Of a DNA stretch of 7,642 nt, positions 1 to 7,642 are shown piece after piece (positions within the stretch are counted from its first letter, which is position 1; each line of letters opens with the position of its first letter). Source of the stretch: an uncultured Panacagrimonas sp. Its GTDB lineage: Bacteria > Pseudomonadota > Gammaproteobacteria > Nevskiales > Nevskiaceae. The notes below the pieces were generated by a model. It was not told where the DNA came from. It made no database searches and was given only the letters and a program-made list of their open reading frames with translations. The stretch lies in contig CAMLNE010000208.1 in assembly GCA_946481265.1 (NCBI GenBank), positions 1 through 7,642 on the forward strand, read 5' to 3'. A program made the translations under genes and the position numbers.

Positions 1-737
1 GCGCCGAGTTCGCGGCGCACCTGGTCGAGCCGGCGTTCGGCAACCAGTTGCAGGCTGCCGGCGACCAGGTACAGGGCCAGCTCGCGGCCCGGCGTGGCGC
101 CCGGCAGGGCCTCCAGCTGCAGGCGCAGGCACTCGGAGAGGCTGCGCGCGCCGAAGCCGGTGGGCTCCACGCTCTGCACCAGCGCAAGGGCCGCTTCCAG
201 TTCCGCGGCGCTGGTGTTGAACGCCACGCCGAGCTGCGCGCCGATCTCACCGAGCGAGCACTCCAGGTAACCGTTGCCGTCGATGTTCTCGATGATGGCG
301 GCGACGATCGCGCCTTCGCGCGGCGTACGCACCATCAGGCTCAGCTGCTCGAGCGCGGACATGCGGGCGTCCGGGTTCTCCGGCGTCGCGGTACGCGCGG
401 TCCAGGGCTCGTCATCCTCGTCGGACGGTTCACCGCCCGACCAGCTCTCGCGGCTGGACCAGTCGAAGTCGGCCTCCACCTCGGCGTGACTGCCGGCGTC
501 GCAGCCGGTGGCCGGCGCCGGGTCGGCCTCGGTGGCCAGGACCTCGGCCGCAATCGCGACCGGCTCGTCGGAACCGTCCGACGCATCGTCGGCCTCCAGC
601 ATCACGTTTTCCTCCAGTGCCTGCTCGATTTCCTGTTCGAGTTCCAGGGTGGAGAGCTGCAGCAGGCGGATCGACTGCAGCAGTTGCGGGGTCAACACCA
701 TGCTCTGGGTGGCGCGAATGGTGAGGCTGGCTTTCAT
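1..737 (-). CDS. rpoN: RNA polymerase sigma-54 factor RpoN, N-terminal part (3' end off window)
   Basis: Sigma-54 directs core RNA polymerase to -24/-12 promoters and needs an AAA+ enhancer-binding protein to open DNA. The first 245 codons are visible. Residues 1-50 form the typical glutamine- and leucine-rich region I, with the strongly conserved stretch TPQLLQSIRLLQLSTLELEQ at about residues 17-36. A very acidic, low-complexity region II follows (about residues 50-115, many Asp/Glu). The start of the core-binding region III follows, with a DGNGYLE motif and an EPTGFGARSLSECL segment that corresponds to DPVGVAARDLRDCL in E. coli RpoN. The ATG at 737 is supported by a GGGAGG Shine-Dalgarno at 744-749, 6 nt upstream. 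The C-terminal HTH and RpoN box lie outside the window. The gene before it is a response regulator, not lptB, so this may be a second or relocated rpoN rather than the housekeeping copy. That last point is inference. Confidence 0.95.
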   Translation of the reverse strand, partial: MKASLTIRATQSMVLTPQLLQSIRLLQLSTLELEQEIEQALEENVMLEADDASDGSDEPVAIAAEVLATEADPAPATGCDAGSHAEVEADFDWSSRESWSGGEPSDEDDEPWTARTATPENPDARMSALEQLSLMVRTPREGAIVAAIIENIDGNGYLECSLGEIGAQLGVAFNTSAAELEAALALVQSVEPTGFGARSLSECLRLQLEALPGATPGRELALYLVAGSLQLVAERRLDQVRRELG

Positions 738-983: not shown

Positions 984-1649
984 TCAGTACTCGTGCGTGT
1001 CCAGGCCCCAGCGCAGGGCGGTCCGCATCAGCGCATTGGTCCCGTAGAGACCCAGCGATTGCATCAGGCGCGCCCGGTGGGTCTCCACGGTCTTCACCGA
1101 AACACCGAGCAGCTGCGCGATCTCCTTGGTGGACTTGCCCTTCCCGATGAGCGTCAGGACCTGCCGCTGGCGGTGCGTCAGCGCCGCCGAGTCCTCCACC
1201 CGGGTGTGGTCACGCCGGTCGAGCAAGAGGTTCGAGACGGCAGGGCTGATGTAGGTCTGCTGCTTCTCCACCGAGCGCAGGGCCAGCCCGAGCTCCTGCG
1301 GCTCGGCCTGCAGGGTCAGGAATCCCGCCGCGCCCTGGCGCAGGGCCGAGCGCACCTGGCCCGGGTCGGGCCGGGTGGCAAGCAGCAGGACCGCCACCTC
1401 GGGATAGTGCCGGCGGATCTGTGCGAGGGCGTCCAGCCCGTTGACGATGGGAAGGTCGAGCTCGACCAGGGCGGCACGCGGCCGCAGCCGCGCGACCAGG
1501 GTCAGCAACTCCTGGCCATCCGCGGCCTCGCCGATCACCTCGGCCTGGGCCTCGACCTGCAGCAGCAGGCGCATGCCGGCCCGCACCAGGGCCTGCCCAT
1601 TGGCGAGCACCAGCTTGGTCGGCGTTGCGCGACCGGACGGGACGTTCAT
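984..1649 (-). CDS. NarL/FixJ-type response regulator with degenerate receiver domain and LuxR HTH
   Basis: This is a 221-residue protein with two domains: an N-terminal receiver (about residues 11-128) and a C-terminal LuxR/GerE helix-turn-helix (about 154-215, with LTHRQRQVL, STKEIAQLLGVS and KTVETHRARL). The fold pattern is well conserved, but the signature receiver residues are not. The acidic pair expected after the first strand is N17-G18 (AxDD in family members). The phospho-acceptor Asp is E63 (ALVELDLP). The Thr/Ser of strand 4 is A91, and the conserved Lys of strand 5 is L113. Spacing between these positions matches NarL (D14, D59, S87, K109), so the alignment is secure. The DNA-binding half looks intact. 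The protein probably binds DNA without classical phosphorylation, with E63 perhaps acting as a fixed phospho-mimic; this is inference. The ATG at 1649 gives a receiver with a normal N-terminus, although its Shine-Dalgarno is poor. No histidine kinase is present in the window. The target genes are unknown; the neighbouring rpoN is a possible partner. Confidence 0.9.
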   Translation of the reverse strand: MNVPSGRATPTKLVLANGQALVRAGMRLLLQVEAQAEVIGEAADGQELLTLVARLRPRAALVELDLPIVNGLDALAQIRRHYPEVAVLLLATRPDPGQVRSALRQGAAGFLTLQAEPQELGLALRSVEKQQTYISPAVSNLLLDRRDHTRVEDSAALTHRQRQVLTLIGKGKSTKEIAQLLGVSVKTVETHRARLMQSLGLYGTNALMRTALRWGLDTHEY

Positions 1650-1705: not shown

Positions 1706-2473
1706 TCAGGCCGACAGCTCGCCGGGATCGAATCCCGCCCGTGTTCGCGCCTCGAGATTGAACGGCCGCTGCAAGCGGACCCGGTGTTCCGCGATCAGCG
1801 CGCGGAACGTCGCCGCGGAGTCCAGGCCGCGCTGCGCGCACAGGTGCCGGAACCAGCGCGTGCCGATGGCGACGTGGCGCACCTCCTCCTCGAGGATCAC
1901 GCGCAGGATCGCGGCTGTGGCTTCGTCCCCCACCTCGACCAGCCGTCGGATCAGGTTGGGCGTCACGTCGAGTCCACGTGCCTCCAGCACGCGCGGCACC
2001 AGCGCCATGCGCACCAGCGGGTCGTGGGCGGTCTTCTGCGCCGCCTCCCACAGGCCGTTGTGCGCGCAGAAATCGCCATAGGCATAGCCCAGCTCCACCA
2101 AGCGGCCGGACAGCAGGGCGAAGTGGCGCGCCTCGTCCTGCGCCACGCTGATCCAGTCCGCGTAGTAGTCGGCGGGCAGTCCGTCGAAGCGCAGCGCGGC
2201 GTCGAGCGCAAGGTTCACCGCGTTGAATTCGATGTGCGCGACCGCGTGCACCAGCGCCGCACGACCCTCGGCGCTGCCGAGTCCGCGCAAGGGAACCGCG
2301 CGCGGATCCACCAGCTGCGGGCGCGCCGGACGACCCGGAATGCGCGGGTCGCGGGCCAGGCTCGCGTCACCGGCCCACGCCGCACCGGCGGCCGAGGGCG
2401 CCAGCGCCGCCACCAGGGCGCACTTGCGCGCCGGGTCGGGCTCGCACAGCGCGTCGAGCAGGGCGTGCCGCAT
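1706..2473 (-). CDS. DUF455 family ferritin-like diiron protein
   Basis: A 255-residue soluble protein recognised as DUF455 (COG2833), a family with a ferritin-like four-helix bundle related in fold to the tRNA hydroxylase MiaE. Its function is not established. A complete set of candidate diiron ligands is visible in the expected helix order: E82 (AHIEFNAV), E114 and H117 (DEARHF), E164 (LEARGLD), and E197 and H200 (EEEVRHVAIG). The family-typical ends FNLEARTRAGFDP (about 238-250) and ARGLDVTPNL (165-174) are also present. The ATG at 2473 is chosen because it lies 8 nt after the metZ stop. Longer in-frame versions would run deep into metZ. There is no clear Shine-Dalgarno, so translation is probably coupled to metZ. 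Binding of metal and an oxidase or hydroxylase role are family-based inference. Confidence 0.88.
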   Translation of the reverse strand: MRHALLDALCEPDPARKCALVAALAPSAAGAAWAGDASLARDPRIPGRPARPQLVDPRAVPLRGLGSAEGRAALVHAVAHIEFNAVNLALDAALRFDGLPADYYADWISVAQDEARHFALLSGRLVELGYAYGDFCAHNGLWEAAQKTAHDPLVRMALVPRVLEARGLDVTPNLIRRLVEVGDEATAAILRVILEEEVRHVAIGTRWFRHLCAQRGLDSAATFRALIAEHRVRLQRPFNLEARTRAGFDPGELSA

Positions 2474-2481
2474 GCCGGCGT

Positions 2482-3675
2482 TCAGGCCAGGCCGCGACGC
2501 AGGTCGGCCTGGATGTCGTCGAGATCCTCCAGCCCCACCGCGACGCGCACCAGGCCCTCGGTGATCCCCGCCGCGGCGCGCGCCTGCGGGCTGATGCGCC
2601 CGTGCGTGGTGGTCGCCGGATGGGTGATGGTGGTGCGCGTGTCGCCCAGGTTCGAGGTGATCGAACACAACCGCGTGGCGTCGATCAGCTTCCAGGCGCC
2701 CGCACGCTCGCCCTCGACCTCGAACGAGACGACGGCGCCGTAGCCGGTGCTCTGGCGCTTCGCCAGTTCGTGCTGCGGATGGCTGGGCAGGCCGGGGTAG
2801 AACACGCGCCGGATGGCGACCTGCTCGTTGAGCCAGGTCGCCAGGCGACGCGCGTTGTCCTCGTGCGCCTTCATGCGCACGCTCAAGGTCTCCAGCCCCT
2901 TGAGGAAGACCCAGGCGTTGAACGGTGACATGCAGGGCCCGGCCGTGCGCATGAAACCGAAGACGTCCTTGCCCACGCCCTGCGCGTCGCCGACGATCGC
3001 GCCACCCATGCAGCGACCCTGGCCGTCCAGATACTTGGTGGCCGAGTGGATGACGTAGTCGGCGCCCAGTGCCAGCGGCCTCTGGAACACCGGGGTCAGG
3101 AAACAGTTGTCCACGGCGAGCTTCGCGCCGTGCCGGTGCGCCAGCTCGGCGAGCGCGGCGATGTCTGCGACCTCGGTCAGCGGATTGGACGGCGTCTCGA
3201 CGAACAGCAGGCGGGTGTTCGGACGTATTGCCTGCTCCCAGGCCGCCGGGTCCTTCTGGTCGACGTAGTCCACGTCGACGCCGAACTTCACCAGGTAGTT
3301 GTTGAACAGGCTGATGGTCGACCCGAACAGCCCGTTCGATGCGAGCAGGTGATCGCCCGCCTTCATCGTCGCCAGCGCCAGCGAGAGGATCGCGACCATT
3401 CCGCTGGCGGTGGCCACGCAGGCCTCGCCGCCCTCCATGCGTGCCAGGCGCTCCTCGAAGGCCTTCACCGTCGGATTGCTGAAGCGCGCGTAGATGTTCC
3501 CCGGCTGCTCTCCGGCGAACACCGCGGCAGCCTCGGCCGCGCTGTGGAACATGAAGCTGGACGAGGCGAAGATCGCCGGCGAGTGCTCCATCTCGGACGT
3601 GCGCCGCGCGGCCGCGCGGATGCCGAGCGTGGCGGTGCCCCAGTGGAGTTCAGGATCTTCAGGCGTGTCGGTCAT
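2482..3675 (-). CDS. metZ: O-succinylhomoserine sulfhydrylase MetZ
   Basis: MetZ is a PLP enzyme of the Cys/Met metabolism family that makes homocysteine from O-succinylhomoserine and sulfide, bypassing the MetB/MetC transsulfuration route. The 397-residue protein aligns end to end with my recollection of Pseudomonas MetZ. Visible features are FAGEQPGNIYARFSNPTV (about 53-70, the phosphate-contacting YxR motif), TASGM (89-93), VETPSNP (159-165), VDNCF (188-192, with D189 for the PLP nitrogen) and the Schiff-base lysine K214 in HSATKYLDGQG. Near the C-terminus are LPSHPQHELAKRQ (296-308) and SNLGDTRTTITHPATTTHG (341-359). The ATG at 3675 fits the family N-terminus. The Shine-Dalgarno is weak (CGGA about 9 nt upstream). 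It follows purF in the conserved cvpA-purF-metZ order, but it has its own promoter and a terminator-bearing leader, so it is probably regulated separately. A cystathionine gamma-synthase is less likely, given the specific MetZ motifs. Confidence 0.95.
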   Translation of the reverse strand: MTDTPEDPELHWGTATLGIRAAARRTSEMEHSPAIFASSSFMFHSAAEAAAVFAGEQPGNIYARFSNPTVKAFEERLARMEGGEACVATASGMVAILSLALATMKAGDHLLASNGLFGSTISLFNNYLVKFGVDVDYVDQKDPAAWEQAIRPNTRLLFVETPSNPLTEVADIAALAELAHRHGAKLAVDNCFLTPVFQRPLALGADYVIHSATKYLDGQGRCMGGAIVGDAQGVGKDVFGFMRTAGPCMSPFNAWVFLKGLETLSVRMKAHEDNARRLATWLNEQVAIRRVFYPGLPSHPQHELAKRQSTGYGAVVSFEVEGERAGAWKLIDATRLCSITSNLGDTRTTITHPATTTHGRISPQARAAAGITEGLVRVAVGLEDLDDIQADLRRGLA

Positions 3676-3782
3676 TTTTCGAGTCCGTCACGCGGGCAAC
3701 AAAAAGCCCGCGATCAATGCGGGCCGATTCAGATGGATGCTTCACGCTTAGCAGTGAGCCCGCAAGCGTTGGAAATCGGCGT
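3676..3782 (-). promoter_or_regulatory. metZ 5' leader: candidate transcription attenuator or riboswitch
   Basis: If transcription starts about 7 nt after the -10 box, the leader is roughly 107 nt and contains interlocking complementary segments. P1 pairs 3774-3780 with 3723-3729 (7 bp). P2 pairs 3764-3769 with 3744-3749 (6 bp), and its loop carries a GCGGGC. That loop segment (3758-3764) is complementary over 7 nt to 3718-3724, the 5' arm of the downstream terminator. The terminator 3' arm (3706-3712) can instead pair over 7 nt with 3691-3697, just before metZ. Thus P1 or the loop pairing would block the terminator, and the last pairing would also disrupt it. This is the layout of an attenuator with alternative folds. 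I see no leader peptide ORF rich in Met codons, which favours direct RNA sensing or a protein. The fold does not match the SAM-II, SAM-V or SAH aptamers as I remember them. The ligand is unknown; each single helix could arise by chance at this GC content. Confidence 0.55.
3701..3724 (-). terminator. Intrinsic terminator inside the metZ leader
   Basis: On the minus strand a 6-bp all-G/C stem (3719-3724 with 3706-3711), with a 7-nt loop, is followed at once by five T residues (3701-3705) and then GTT. This is a standard Rho-independent terminator. It ends 25 nt before the metZ ATG, too close for a promoter to fit between them. It may serve partly to end purF transcripts, but it must also control RNA that reads into metZ. 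Confidence 0.75.
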
Positions 3783-3788
3783 GCGCGA

Positions 3789-3814
3789 ATTCTAGGGAGT
3801 ACCACCGGGGCGGG

Positions 3815-3818
<4 letters not shown>
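3789..3818 (-). promoter_or_regulatory. Sigma-70 promoter for metZ, overlapping the purF stop
   Basis: On the minus strand TTGACC (3813-3818, five of six matches to the -35 consensus) is followed after 18 nt by TAGAAT (3789-3794, five of six matches to the -10 consensus). The -35 box includes the purF TGA stop codon. The predicted start lies near 3782, just before the first arm of the leader structure. It is the best promoter-like sequence I find in the window. Confidence 0.65.
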
Positions 3819-5335
<1,517 letters not shown>

Positions 5336-5348
5336 GCGAGGCGTCTCC

Positions 5349-5912
5349 TCAGGCGGGGAAAAGGGAAGCCGAAGGCTCGGCGCCGTCCATTCCCGGTTCT
5401 GGTGTCACAGATGGGGGCCGGGCATCGGGCTTCAAGGGCTCGAGCCAGGCGTCGGGAATCAGTGTGTCCAGGCCATCGGCGATCACCGTCGACGGCGGGA
5501 TCAGGATCGACTCCCTCCACCAGGCGTCCGAGCCGAAACCGGCGGTGCGACCGATCAGCACGGCCAGCCCCACGAGCAGCATGCCGCGTACCAGCCCCAG
5601 GCCGGCGCCCAGCGTGCGGTCTGCCGAGGAGAAACGGCTCTGGCGGATGCGCGACACCAGCAACGCCGTGAGGATGCTGCCGATCAGCAGCCCGCCCAGG
5701 AACAGCCCGCCGTAGGCGGCGCCCATGCGCAGGAGCGGCGTGGCGATATGCGGCTGCAGGGCCAGGACCAGGTTCGCACCGAAGAGCACAGCGAGCACGA
5801 TGGCAAGAACCCAGGTGGCGATACCGAAGATTTCGCGGGTGAACCCCCGCAACAGCCCGATCAGGATCGACAGGATGACGATGGCCAGGATGCCGTAATC
5901 CGCCCAGTTCAT
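5349..5912 (-). CDS. cvpA: CvpA family inner-membrane protein
   Basis: A 187-residue membrane protein with about four hydrophobic segments (roughly residues 5-22, 31-51, 65-87 and 102-122) and a hydrophilic, proline-rich C-terminal tail (about 155-187). The opening [20 protein letters not shown], followed by [10 protein letters not shown], is typical of the CvpA (colicin V production) family. In E. coli the gene lies upstream of purF and is needed for colicin V production. A role in envelope integrity and bile or stress resistance has been reported in enteric bacteria, but its molecular activity is not known. The ATG at 5912 starts at the family N-terminus. The Shine-Dalgarno is weak. An extended -10 promoter lies about 30 nt upstream. 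It forms an operon with purF (13-nt gap). Confidence 0.93.
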
Positions 5913-6082: not shown

Positions 6083-7183
6083 CTACAGGCGGTCCAGGAT
6101 CGCCTTCTCGACCGAAAACCGCTCGGCCGGCACCTGCACCAGGCCGGCCAGGCCGTCCTTCATCACGATGTCCGGATCCTTCAGGCCGTTGCCGGTGAGC
6201 GTGCAGACCACGGTCTTGCCCGCCTTGATGTCGCGCAGCGCGCCGCACAGCGAGGCGGCGGAGGCCGGCTCGCAGAACACGCCCTCGCTCTGCGCCAGCA
6301 GCCGCTGGGTGGCCAGGATCTCGGCGTCGGTGCATTCGTCGAACCAGCCGCCGCTGTCCTTCTGCGCCTCCCAGGCCAGGTCCCAGGACTGCGGATGACC
6401 GATGCGAATGGCCGTGGCGACCGTTTCCGGCTCGGCGACCGGGCCGCCGCGCAGGAAGGGCGCCGCGCCGGACGCCTGGTAGCCGAGCATGACCGGGCGG
6501 CTGTCGGTGATGGCGAACCGGTCGTAGGCGGGGTTCTCGCCGAAGGTGCGCGAGGCCGCGGTGGTCAGGCCCATCATCTCGGAATAGCCCATCCAGTACG
6601 CCGAGATGTTGCCGGCGTTGCCGACCGGCAGGCAGTGGTAGTCGGGGGCACGGCCGAGCGCCTCGACGATCTCGAAGGCGGCGGTCTTCTGGCCCTGCAG
6701 GCGGTAGGGATTGATCGAGTTGACGATGGATACCGGCGAGGTCTGCGCGACCTCCTTCACCAGGCGCATGCCGTCGTCGAAGTTCCCCGTCACCTGGATC
6801 ACGACCGCCCCGTGCACCACGGCCTGGGCCAGCTTGCCCAGCGCGATCTTGCCTTCCGGGATCAGCACGAAGGCCGTGATGCCGGCGCGCACCGCATACG
6901 CCGCCGCGGCCGCGGAGGTGTTGCCGGTGGAGGCGCAGATGATGGCGCGCGAGCCCTCGTGCACGGCCTGGGTCACTGCGGCCGTCATGCCCCGGTCCTT
7001 GAACGAGCCCGTCGGATTCAGGCCCTCGAACTTCACGTAGAGCTCGTTTTCCAGGCCCAGGCGCCTGGGCAGATTCTCCAGCTTGATCAGCGGCGTGCGG
7101 CCCTCGCACAGGGCGATGGCGCGCGCATCGGGCGCGATCGGGAGACGGTGACGATAGTGATCGACCAGACCGGTGTAGCGCAT
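6083..7183 (-). CDS. thrC: Threonine synthase ThrC (short form)
   Basis: Converts O-phosphohomoserine to threonine with PLP, the last step of threonine synthesis. The 366-residue protein is a fold-type II PLP enzyme. Visible features are [13 protein letters not shown] (28-40), the PLP lysine K62 in [11 protein letters not shown] (56-66), [14 protein letters not shown] (84-97), [13 protein letters not shown] (155-167), the glycine-rich phosphate loop PVGNAGN (186-192) and the C-terminal LTGNGLKDP (329-337). It belongs to the short form (about 350-370 residues, as in Bacillus and Mycobacterium), not the form of well over 400 residues found in E. coli and Pseudomonas. The ATG at 7183 ([10 protein letters not shown]) is preferred: it lies 4 nt after the GNAT stop, and AGG lies 9 nt upstream. 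A longer in-frame start would overlap the GNAT gene and add unconserved sequence. Confidence 0.96.
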
Positions 7184-7187
7184 GGAT

Positions 7188-7642
7188 TCAAACCTGAGCG
7201 GGCAAGACGGTTGAGACGCAGGACTGCAGTCGCGCATCGAGGGCCGCACGGACGGCCGGCCACTCCTGGCGAAGGATGCTGAAGTAGACGGTATCGCGGA
7301 TGCGCCCGTCGGGCATGATCATGTGCCGCCGGAAGATGCCTTCCTGGGTGGCGCCGATGCGCTCGATCGCGGTGCGCGAGCGGGCATTGAGAAGATCGGT
7401 CTTGAACTCGATCCGGTCCAGCTGCATCTGATCGAAGCCGTGGCCGAGCAGCAGGCGCTTGCACTCGGTGTTGACGGCGGTGCGCTGCACCCGCGCCGCG
7501 ATCCAGGTCCAGCCGATCTCGGCCCGGCGATGGGCGGGTTCGATCGCCGCGAAGCGCGTGGAGCCGATCACCTCGCCGCCCGCGCGCAGGCGGATCAGGA
7601 ATGGCTGCGCGCTGCCCACGGCCTGCGCATCCAGCGCGCGCT
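7188..7642 (-). CDS. GNAT family N-acetyltransferase (5' end off window)
   Basis: The last 150 codons of an acetyltransferase of the RimJ/RimL-like (COG1670) group are visible. Landmarks are [20 protein letters not shown] (strands 2-3), [19 protein letters not shown] (the acetyl-CoA-binding motif A, with QRTAVN as the pyrophosphate loop), [18 protein letters not shown] (motif B, containing the family-typical NxxS-like [13 protein letters not shown]) and [20 protein letters not shown] near the C-terminus. Proteins of this kind acetylate amino groups of small molecules or of protein N-termini; the substrate here is not deducible. The start codon is beyond the right edge. Its stop lies 4 nt before thrC, so the two are probably one transcript. 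Confidence 0.9.

Follow-up and report, generated by a model that had tools for sequence, protein, structure and literature searches.

How is transcription of metZ controlled in Panacagrimonas? The question is raised by a stretch of 7,642 nucleotides (nt) from an uncultured member of this genus (order Nevskiales; contig CAMLNE010000208.1), referred to here as the window, in which metZ, the gene for O-succinylhomoserine sulfhydrylase, follows purF on the minus strand. The gap of 139 nt between the two genes contains a promoter-like and a terminator-like site. A preliminary description of this leader had noted a terminator, several helices that would exclude it and a possible riboswitch or attenuator of no recognized class. 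The analysis presented here indicates that the leader probably carries a compact, divergent riboswitch of the S-adenosylmethionine (SAM)-II type, which would act as a transcriptional OFF switch for metZ. The helices are very probably part of a riboswitch, and not of a new class: the earlier statement that no known class applies is wrong, since SAM-II elements scoring above the Rfam threshold occupy the same site in related Nevskiales. The features of the window are collected in Table 1.

Kinship with SAM-II riboswitches

A search with MetZ returned 306 stretches encoding a relative, the best 80 of which were kept as loci. Among these best 80, the nearest relatives come from three Panacagrimonas genomes (80–84% identity), followed by other Nevskiales (69–75%). 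On reading the first 30 leaders, a common motif was evident, GCGCCGATTTG..CAGCTTGCGGGCGC..AATAAAT..GCTAAA, and with a loose pattern this motif or a short form of it was found before metZ in 25 of the 80 loci. When 20 loci, 18 of them with an ordinary element, were submitted to Rfam, SAM_alpha (RF00521; gathering cut-off 36 bits) exceeded the cut-off in five metZ leaders (L006, L008, L011, L012 and L015). Seven leaders of the second, 13-source set (L004, L005, L010, L016, L027, L028 and L030) scored 29.2–35.2 bits, under the cut-off, and SAM_alpha was not listed by Rfam for L007, L009 and L013, in which loop L3 holds an extra hairpin.

The leader in the window is predicted to form an H-type pseudoknot of about 37 nt with interleaved helices P1 and P2 and a bulged U44, all pairs of which can form; the Panacagrimonas leaders L001, L003 and L082 (the last from the genome of L002) have the same layout. 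Like the SAM-II elements of the Nevskiales metZ leaders L004–L013 and L015, it stands at the same site before a methionine-synthesis gene, has the core GAUUU/CUUGC/GCUAA and is followed by a terminator. Residues are numbered as in PDB entry 2QWY, and the numbering is consistent with the base triples U11-A45-U21, U12-A46-U20 and G8-G42-C23 and with the conserved bases listed in PubMed Central (PMC) article PMC3764141. The same source reports 13 pocket bases, A47 included, as completely conserved in SAM-II (PMC3764141), of which the window retains 12 (U10–U12, U20, U21, G22, C23, G42, C43, U44, A45 and A46).

BLAST with the window leader found three Panacagrimonas genomes (expectation value, E, 3.5e-21, 5.6e-15 and 4.8e-11), the only ones at that strength among 85 genomes of the order; three further genomes (E 2e-4 to 7e-4) matched the terminator part of the query only. 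The promoter, GCCGAUUUC, GCUUGCGGGC, GCUAAG, AUCGGCCCGC, the terminator and GCCCGCGUGA recur at matching places in L001, L082 and L003, and GAUUU, CUUGC and GCUAA are kept in order at the same site in all four leaders. Letter by letter, the core, antiterminator and terminator are near-identical across the four species and the linkers vary.

For comparison, 73 distinct elements were available (74 were found; L166, a match by chance, was excluded throughout), four from Panacagrimonas and 69 others, the ordinary elements. Position 47 is A in 67 of the 69 (G in L149, C in L125) and position 13 is G, again in 67 (T in L107, A in L123), whereas C13 and G47 occur together in all four Panacagrimonas elements. 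P1 comprises 3–4 base pairs (bp) in Panacagrimonas as against at least 5 in 68 of the others (5–8 in 67; L112 has 3), and L3 4–8 nt as against 7–30 (10–12 in 55 elements, 26–30 in eight). A further difference is an antiterminator that fits GCCGAUUU. Because L3 of an H-type pseudoknot lies alongside P1, a short P1 goes with a short L3, and the shortening of the two looks coupled. In the four Panacagrimonas elements P2 is extended by C-G at 19/47, G-C or G-U at 18/48, C-G at 17/49 and A-U, G-C or C-G at 16/50; these P2a positions pair (Watson-Crick or G-U) in all four, and 15/51 in two only. The change on both sides of 16/50 supports the pairing, though from four sequences only. Variant pairs were counted by a script with anchored extraction because the MAFFT alignment A2 shifts GCCGATTT of L001 by one base.

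A model (R1) was built from an alignment (A1) of 44 of the 69 ordinary elements. Nine with L3 longer than 14 nt were left out; of the other 60, a further 16 were removed by hand, most of them near-duplicates, with the departures L101, L112 (P1 of 3) and L125 (C47) among the rest. In a search over 111 kilobases of chosen loci, R1 found L082 and L003 at E of about 0.002 and L001 at 0.045; on the 140-nt window leader alone it gave E 1.5e-4, all of these E values being rough. Within A1, P2b and the two U-A pairs are invariant (four pairs, 44 of 44), and covariation therefore speaks neither for nor against P2 there. Support comes from the outer pairs of P1: the covariation score of the structure was 0.079 against a shuffled mean of 0.038, with none of 500 shuffles as high, although such shuffles ignore relatedness; structures slid along the alignment scored 0.023–0.049. 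The intermediate forms L003 and L082, together with the identical genomic site, tie the window to the SAM-II family, and the kinship is well supported by these comparisons.

Proposed control of metZ transcription

The promoter-like site overlaps the purF stop codon and was the single sigma-70-like promoter that a simple scan found in the window (0.4 expected by chance). Counterparts are seen by eye at the same place in L001 and L003 (TTGACC-18-TAAACT) and in L082 (TTGAGC-17-TACACT). The metZ start codon lies about 69 nt past the aptamer end with the terminator between them; among three terminator-like sites in the window (1.8 expected by chance), this one has the longest stem. A base-by-base check on the minus strand bore out the pairings described earlier: the terminator stem (3725–3719/3705–3711, 7 bp), a 6-bp hairpin (3769–3764/3744–3749), a closing helix (3780–3774/3723–3729, 7 bp, or 8 with U3773-G3730), pairing of the terminator 5′ arm with a loop segment (3764–3758/3718–3724, 7 bp) and the alternative partner of the 3′ arm (7 of 7 pairs), the last being kept in L001, L082 and L003. 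The elements seen were thus real, but their labels have changed: the hairpin is the P2 helix, the loop segment a P2/P1 strand and the closing helix the antiterminator. The accompanying warning that single helices are near chance expectation was justified. Against shuffled sequences, the minimum-energy fold of the leader comes out only slightly ahead of chance (z −1.81; 9 of 200 shuffles as good or better), so that the window sequence alone does not decide the case, and the argument beyond chance is comparative. Judging from the relatives, the preliminary description appears to have been right in picturing a metabolite-type switch with a pseudoknotted, terminator-excluding fold and in naming SAM among its ligand guesses.

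The sequence itself shows the conserved parts, the homology at the same site and the mutually exclusive helices; the RNA start, the binding of SAM, termination and the sign of the response are inferred. The nascent RNA would start near 3782, about 2 nt ahead of P1. At high SAM, the pseudoknot (P1; P2, ACGCUUGC/GCUAAGCGU with bulged U44; GAUUU of L1 as third strand) would close around the ligand and occupy GCCGAUUU, so that the terminator forms and metZ is left unread. At low SAM, GCCGAUUU would pair instead with GAAUCGGC, the three pairs at the terminator base would be lost and read-through would follow; in the full mRNA, GCCCGCG would capture the terminator 3′ arm. A ligand that locks GCCGAUUU in the pseudoknot would tip the balance to termination, the OFF response expected for methionine synthesis. 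In Sinorhizobium meliloti, SAM-dependent termination is predicted for a SAM-II element before metZ, and at high SAM the short RNA went up while read-through mRNA and promoter activity went down (PMC9373788); the fall in promoter activity means that this is not proof of termination alone. In the SAM-II leaders described by Corbino et al. (2005; PMC1273637), the promoter lies a few nucleotides upstream of P1 and the terminator downstream of P2, the same arrangement as in the window leader.

The antiterminator sets the Panacagrimonas leaders apart. AUCGGC (3728–3723) occurs within 60 nt after GCUAA in all four and in none of the 69 ordinary elements, and in folds predicted before the terminator 3′ arm exists a GCCGAU(UU)/AUCGGC antiterminator is present in all four leaders. 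With the transcript extended to the U tract, the gap between terminator state and best free fold is 0.4, 0.7, 0.5 and 0.0 kcal/mol (window, L001, L082 and L003), in energies that hold no pseudoknot or ligand contribution. Duplex energies of the P1/L1 strand and of the P2 3′ strand were also compared, each against the sequence that ends at the first TTTT; in some leaders (e.g., L001, L009 and L140) this run falls within the loop of the terminator instead of at the terminator end. The P2 strand was the better partner in 60 of 62 ordinary elements (seven without a T run being set aside), the ordinary antiterminator partner being mostly GCUAAA, and the P1/L1 strand was the better one in three of the four from Panacagrimonas; in the exception, L082, the P2 strand probably fits the terminator arm as well. 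The AUCGGC letter test is sharper than this comparison. Taken from these sequences, the switch looks rewired, its antiterminator having moved from the P2 strand to the P1/L1 strand.

Table 1. Features of the window; strand and positions refer to the 7,642-nt stretch
Feature	Position	Strand	Details
Promoter-like site	3789..3818	-	simple scan; −35 TTGACC (3818-3813), 18-nt spacer, −10 TAGAAT (3794-3789); RNA start expected near 3782
Predicted compact SAM-II-type aptamer	3744..3780	-	H-type pseudoknot, ~37 nt
P1	3780-3778/3760-3758	-	3 bp, GCC/GGC
L1	3777-3772	-	G8 A9 U10 U11 U12 C13
Position 13 of L1	3772	-	C; G in 67/69 other elements
P2 5′ strand	3769-3762	-	
L3	3757-3753	-	UCACU, 5 nt
P2 3′ strand	3752-3744	-	bulged U44 at 3750
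Position 47	3747	-	G, pairs with C19 (3766)
Putative antiterminator 3′ strand	3723..3730	-	GAAUCGGC; pairs with GCCGAUUU (3780-3773); overlaps terminator 5′ arm
Putative intrinsic terminator	3698..3725	-	GGCCCGC-AUUGAUC-GCGGGCU (3725-3705), U tract UUUUGUU (3704-3698)
Alternative partner of terminator 3′ arm	3691..3697	-	GCCCGCG; would pair with 3712-3706 in read-through RNA
metZ, O-succinylhomoserine sulfhydrylase	2482..3675	-	controlled gene; NCBIfam NF006003 and TIGR01325 above cut-off
purF, amidophosphoribosyltransferase	3815..5335	-	upstream neighbour; TIGR01134 above cut-off
CvpA-like protein	5349-5912	-	below cut-off
thrC, threonine synthase	6083-7249	-	above cut-off
DUF455 protein	1706-2668	-	
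LuxR-type response regulator	about 984-1547	-	
rpoN (sigma-54) start	3-737	-	truncated by window end; below its cut-off

Evidence against the assignment and alternative readings

Several observations weigh against a SAM-II-type switch in this leader. A47, which in SAM-II contacts the methionine end of SAM, is replaced by G, so the set of 13 pocket bases is incomplete; P1 has only 3 bp, and the adenine-rich run with which L3 docks in the minor groove of P1 is missing. In SAM-V, inosine in place of the A equivalent to A47 severely cut SAM binding (PMC6061858), which makes the natural G47 unexpected: it would mean either that the C19-G47 pair recognizes the amino acid differently or that the preference for the ligand has changed. 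Even with lax filters and an E limit of 10, SAM_alpha did not appear in the Rfam results for the window, nor, up to E 2, in those for the Panacagrimonas loci L081, L082 and L083. In the unrestricted 111-kilobase search, R1 scored the window at 12.5 bits (E 0.12) and a chance site in L001 at 12.0 bits; the window alone is therefore not separable in a blind search. For L003, free folding already prefers the terminator once the U tract is reached, and the best fold of L082 combines a shortened antiterminator with the terminator. The P1/L1 strand reaches −9 kcal/mol or lower with a downstream partner in 29 of the 62 ordinary elements, and such pairing is thus not special by itself. The variant comprises four genomes of one genus, for which reason covariation is thin. 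Strict membership of SAM-II fails, on the Rfam cut-off, A47 and the L3 adenines alike. An Rfam search of the leader, which had been suggested as a check, returns no SAM_alpha match and is misleading on its own; it is the metZ leaders of relatives that settle the class.

The substitutions at positions 13 and 47 invite the view that the pocket recognizes something else. A SAM-II-fold pocket rebuilt around C19-G47 in place of A47, perhaps as a C13-capped C+.G-C triple, might bind a different ligand or read the amino-acid end anew, within an aptamer of about 37 nt whose antiterminator moved from P2 to P1/L1; we regard this as unlikely, if worth bearing in mind. Put more narrowly, with the fold unchanged and the exchanges A47-to-G and G13-to-C giving a different ligand (for example, a SAM relative without the aminoacyl tail) or a clearly altered preference at the amino-acid end, it seems distinctly doubtful. 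The joint occurrence of C13 and G47 throughout Panacagrimonas, against A47 and G13 almost everywhere else, favors such a change, and from geometry a C+.G-C triple at layer 47 would take the place of the methionine tail. However, the contacts to adenine (U10, U44) and to the sulfonium (U11, U21) are intact, the controlled gene is metZ as for most ordinary elements, and the changes at 13 and 47, confined to a single clade, probably represent one event. L149, moreover, has G47 together with an ordinary G13 and P1 and a long L3, also before metZ, and the amino acid could still find donor and acceptor groups on a C-G pair. On sequence grounds a changed ligand is possible, but less likely than SAM.

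Loss of A47, of most of P1 and of the A-rich L3, together with the failure of Rfam to recognize the element, could also mean decay, in which the aptamer binds nothing and a constitutive or leaky terminator is left. This is improbable, given that the letters of core, antiterminator and terminator are nearly the same in four species while the linkers vary, that P2a pairing survives base changes and that AUCGGC is present in all four and only there. A plain purF terminator, with metZ expressed from elsewhere and the alternative helices due to chance, would fit the 90 nt that separate the end of purF (3815) from the stem and the orientation of the U tract; it is very improbable beside the conserved promoter-like site between purF and the terminator, the SAM-II homology and L003, in which the purF match ends 540 nt from the aptamer and the order promoter-aptamer-terminator-metZ is intact, the unit staying at metZ. 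Least credible is ribosome-mediated attenuation through a leader peptide for methionine. A terminator with alternative helices in the leader of an amino-acid gene would suit it, as would a weak similarity to Trp_leader (RF00513; 22.6 bits against a gathering cut-off of 41), although base by base this match is mainly to the terminator hairpin. But 3782–3726 has no ATG, only one TTG (3765) and one GTG (3745), a run of methionine codons is absent and the GTG is missing at that place in L001 and L082. Other sub-threshold Rfam matches in the window (RyhB, Hrs1, anti-hemB and asX2) were set aside as chance or terminator similarity, those in the leader being due mostly to the terminator hairpin.

Distribution, related elements and significance

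In a class sample of 369 genomes the ordinary pattern was found in 117, with no match to a reversed-pattern control among those listed, and the short form in G001 only; in the order, 35 of 85 genomes have the pattern, three of them in the short form. A looser pattern for short L3 and G47 matched 46 of the 369, but on inspection the remainder of the element was present in G001 alone, and the others look like chance (the pattern has 16 letters, and its reversed control also matched in several). A phylum-wide search for short L3 matched 6 of 398 genomes: G001 is the variant and G541 a separate compact element, G679 and G792 have ordinary elements whose L3 starts with GCTAA by coincidence, and G706 and G517 look like chance. 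Among the matches listed for openly licensed PMC articles, no riboswitch in Panacagrimonas and no SAM-II with A47-to-G appeared in titles or the starts of abstracts, and no openly licensed PMC full text pairs 'Panacagrimonas' with 'riboswitch'.

Apart from the window (and L166), metZ lies within 600 nt downstream in 65 of 72 elements and purF within 600 nt upstream in 45. Because loci L001–L080 were picked by MetZ, the fair count for metZ is that of the 48 elements found in whole genomes by DNA pattern alone (in L094–L153), where it follows 42 by hand count; 25 of 31 elements in 30 loci fetched from the class sample precede metZ. In the genome of L082 and L002 (G002), a similar stretch is seen by eye in opposite orientation on two contigs, between terminator and metZ, as though the assembly had been interrupted at a palindromic repeat. 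Within the window, thrC and metZ, whose products both use homoserine, lie about 2.4 kilobases apart with purF and the CvpA-like gene between them.

SAM-V, known from metY of Pelagibacter, shares with the window the H-type pseudoknot, the same SAM-binding triplex and a short P1 (4 bp in SAM-V), but it acts on translation, retains the equivalent of A47 as A and carries P3 as an additional hairpin (PMC6061858). In SAM-V, P3 separates P1 from the P2 3′ strand and P2a holds the Shine-Dalgarno sequence; in the window, the 5-nt L3 has no room for a hairpin, and the terminator stands between the aptamer and a start codon about 69 nt beyond it. SAM-V was rejected on these grounds, and Rfam returned no SAM-V row for the window. 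Long L3 loops of 26–30 nt, mostly with an extra hairpin reminiscent of P3 of SAM-V, are seen in L007 (of which L013 is a near-copy), L009, L143, L146, L149, L150, L152 and L153; L149 (G072, 1500, plus strand) is a second case of G47, also in a metZ leader. Multiple or tandem SAM-II-like elements, some about 110 nt apart, occur in L123 (G168), G291, G413, G330 (seven matches) and G442 (six matches), and include A13 forms (GATTTA..CAACTTGC) next to ordinary ones; L123 has no metZ within 600 nt downstream.

A parallel in shape is L177 (G541; around 1497–1545, plus strand, 1.8-Mb genome), with a P1 of 4 bp (TGCC/GGCA), an L3 of about 5 nt and a terminator-like hairpin, followed by genes that resemble those of the methionine transporter. 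Their best NCBIfam scores were 292 bits for MetN (cut-off 500) and 178 for MetI (212), the second frame being truncated by the locus end. L177 differs from the window in keeping G13 and A47 and belongs to another genome, probably of a separate lineage; that it shows the same combination suggests that the compact form may have arisen more than once.

SAM-II was first described from alpha-proteobacteria. Coxiella and Bordetella are named in a figure legend of Corbino et al. (2005; PMC1273637), and Barrick and Breaker (2007; PMC2258182) reported sporadic gamma-proteobacterial SAM-II and terminators for SAM-II in alpha- and beta-proteobacteria. Leyn et al. (2014; PMC4239095) gave SAM_alpha only for Rhizobiales and Rhodobacterales and described as 'novel' a beta-proteobacterial metXZ element, which resembles the present one in its genes (metX/metZ) and in having a pseudoknot and a terminator. 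RF02424 (Bp2_287, 'Burkholderia sRNA'), placed next to purF, metZ and metX (PMC3521395), matches the antisense strand of the L004, L005, L016, L028 and L030 leaders at 22–30 bits (cut-off 70). The ordinary elements described here and these opposite-strand matches below the cut-off make it plausible that metXZ and RF02424 represent one SAM-II element, and RF02424 may be the reverse strand of the beta-proteobacterial one; neither is called SAM-II in the available parts of PMC4239095 and PMC3521395.

The ordinary motif occurs in 117 of 369 class genomes, yet only 5 of the 18 ordinary metZ leaders submitted to Rfam reached its cut-off, a sign of a blind spot in detection. If the proposal is true, a SAM-II riboswitch can shrink and be rewired far while staying at one gene; it could do without, or replace, most of P1, L3 and the 'invariant' A47, and its expression platform could change pseudoknot strands inside a single bacterial order. 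The exchange of A47 would then offer a direct test case for the evolution of ligand recognition.
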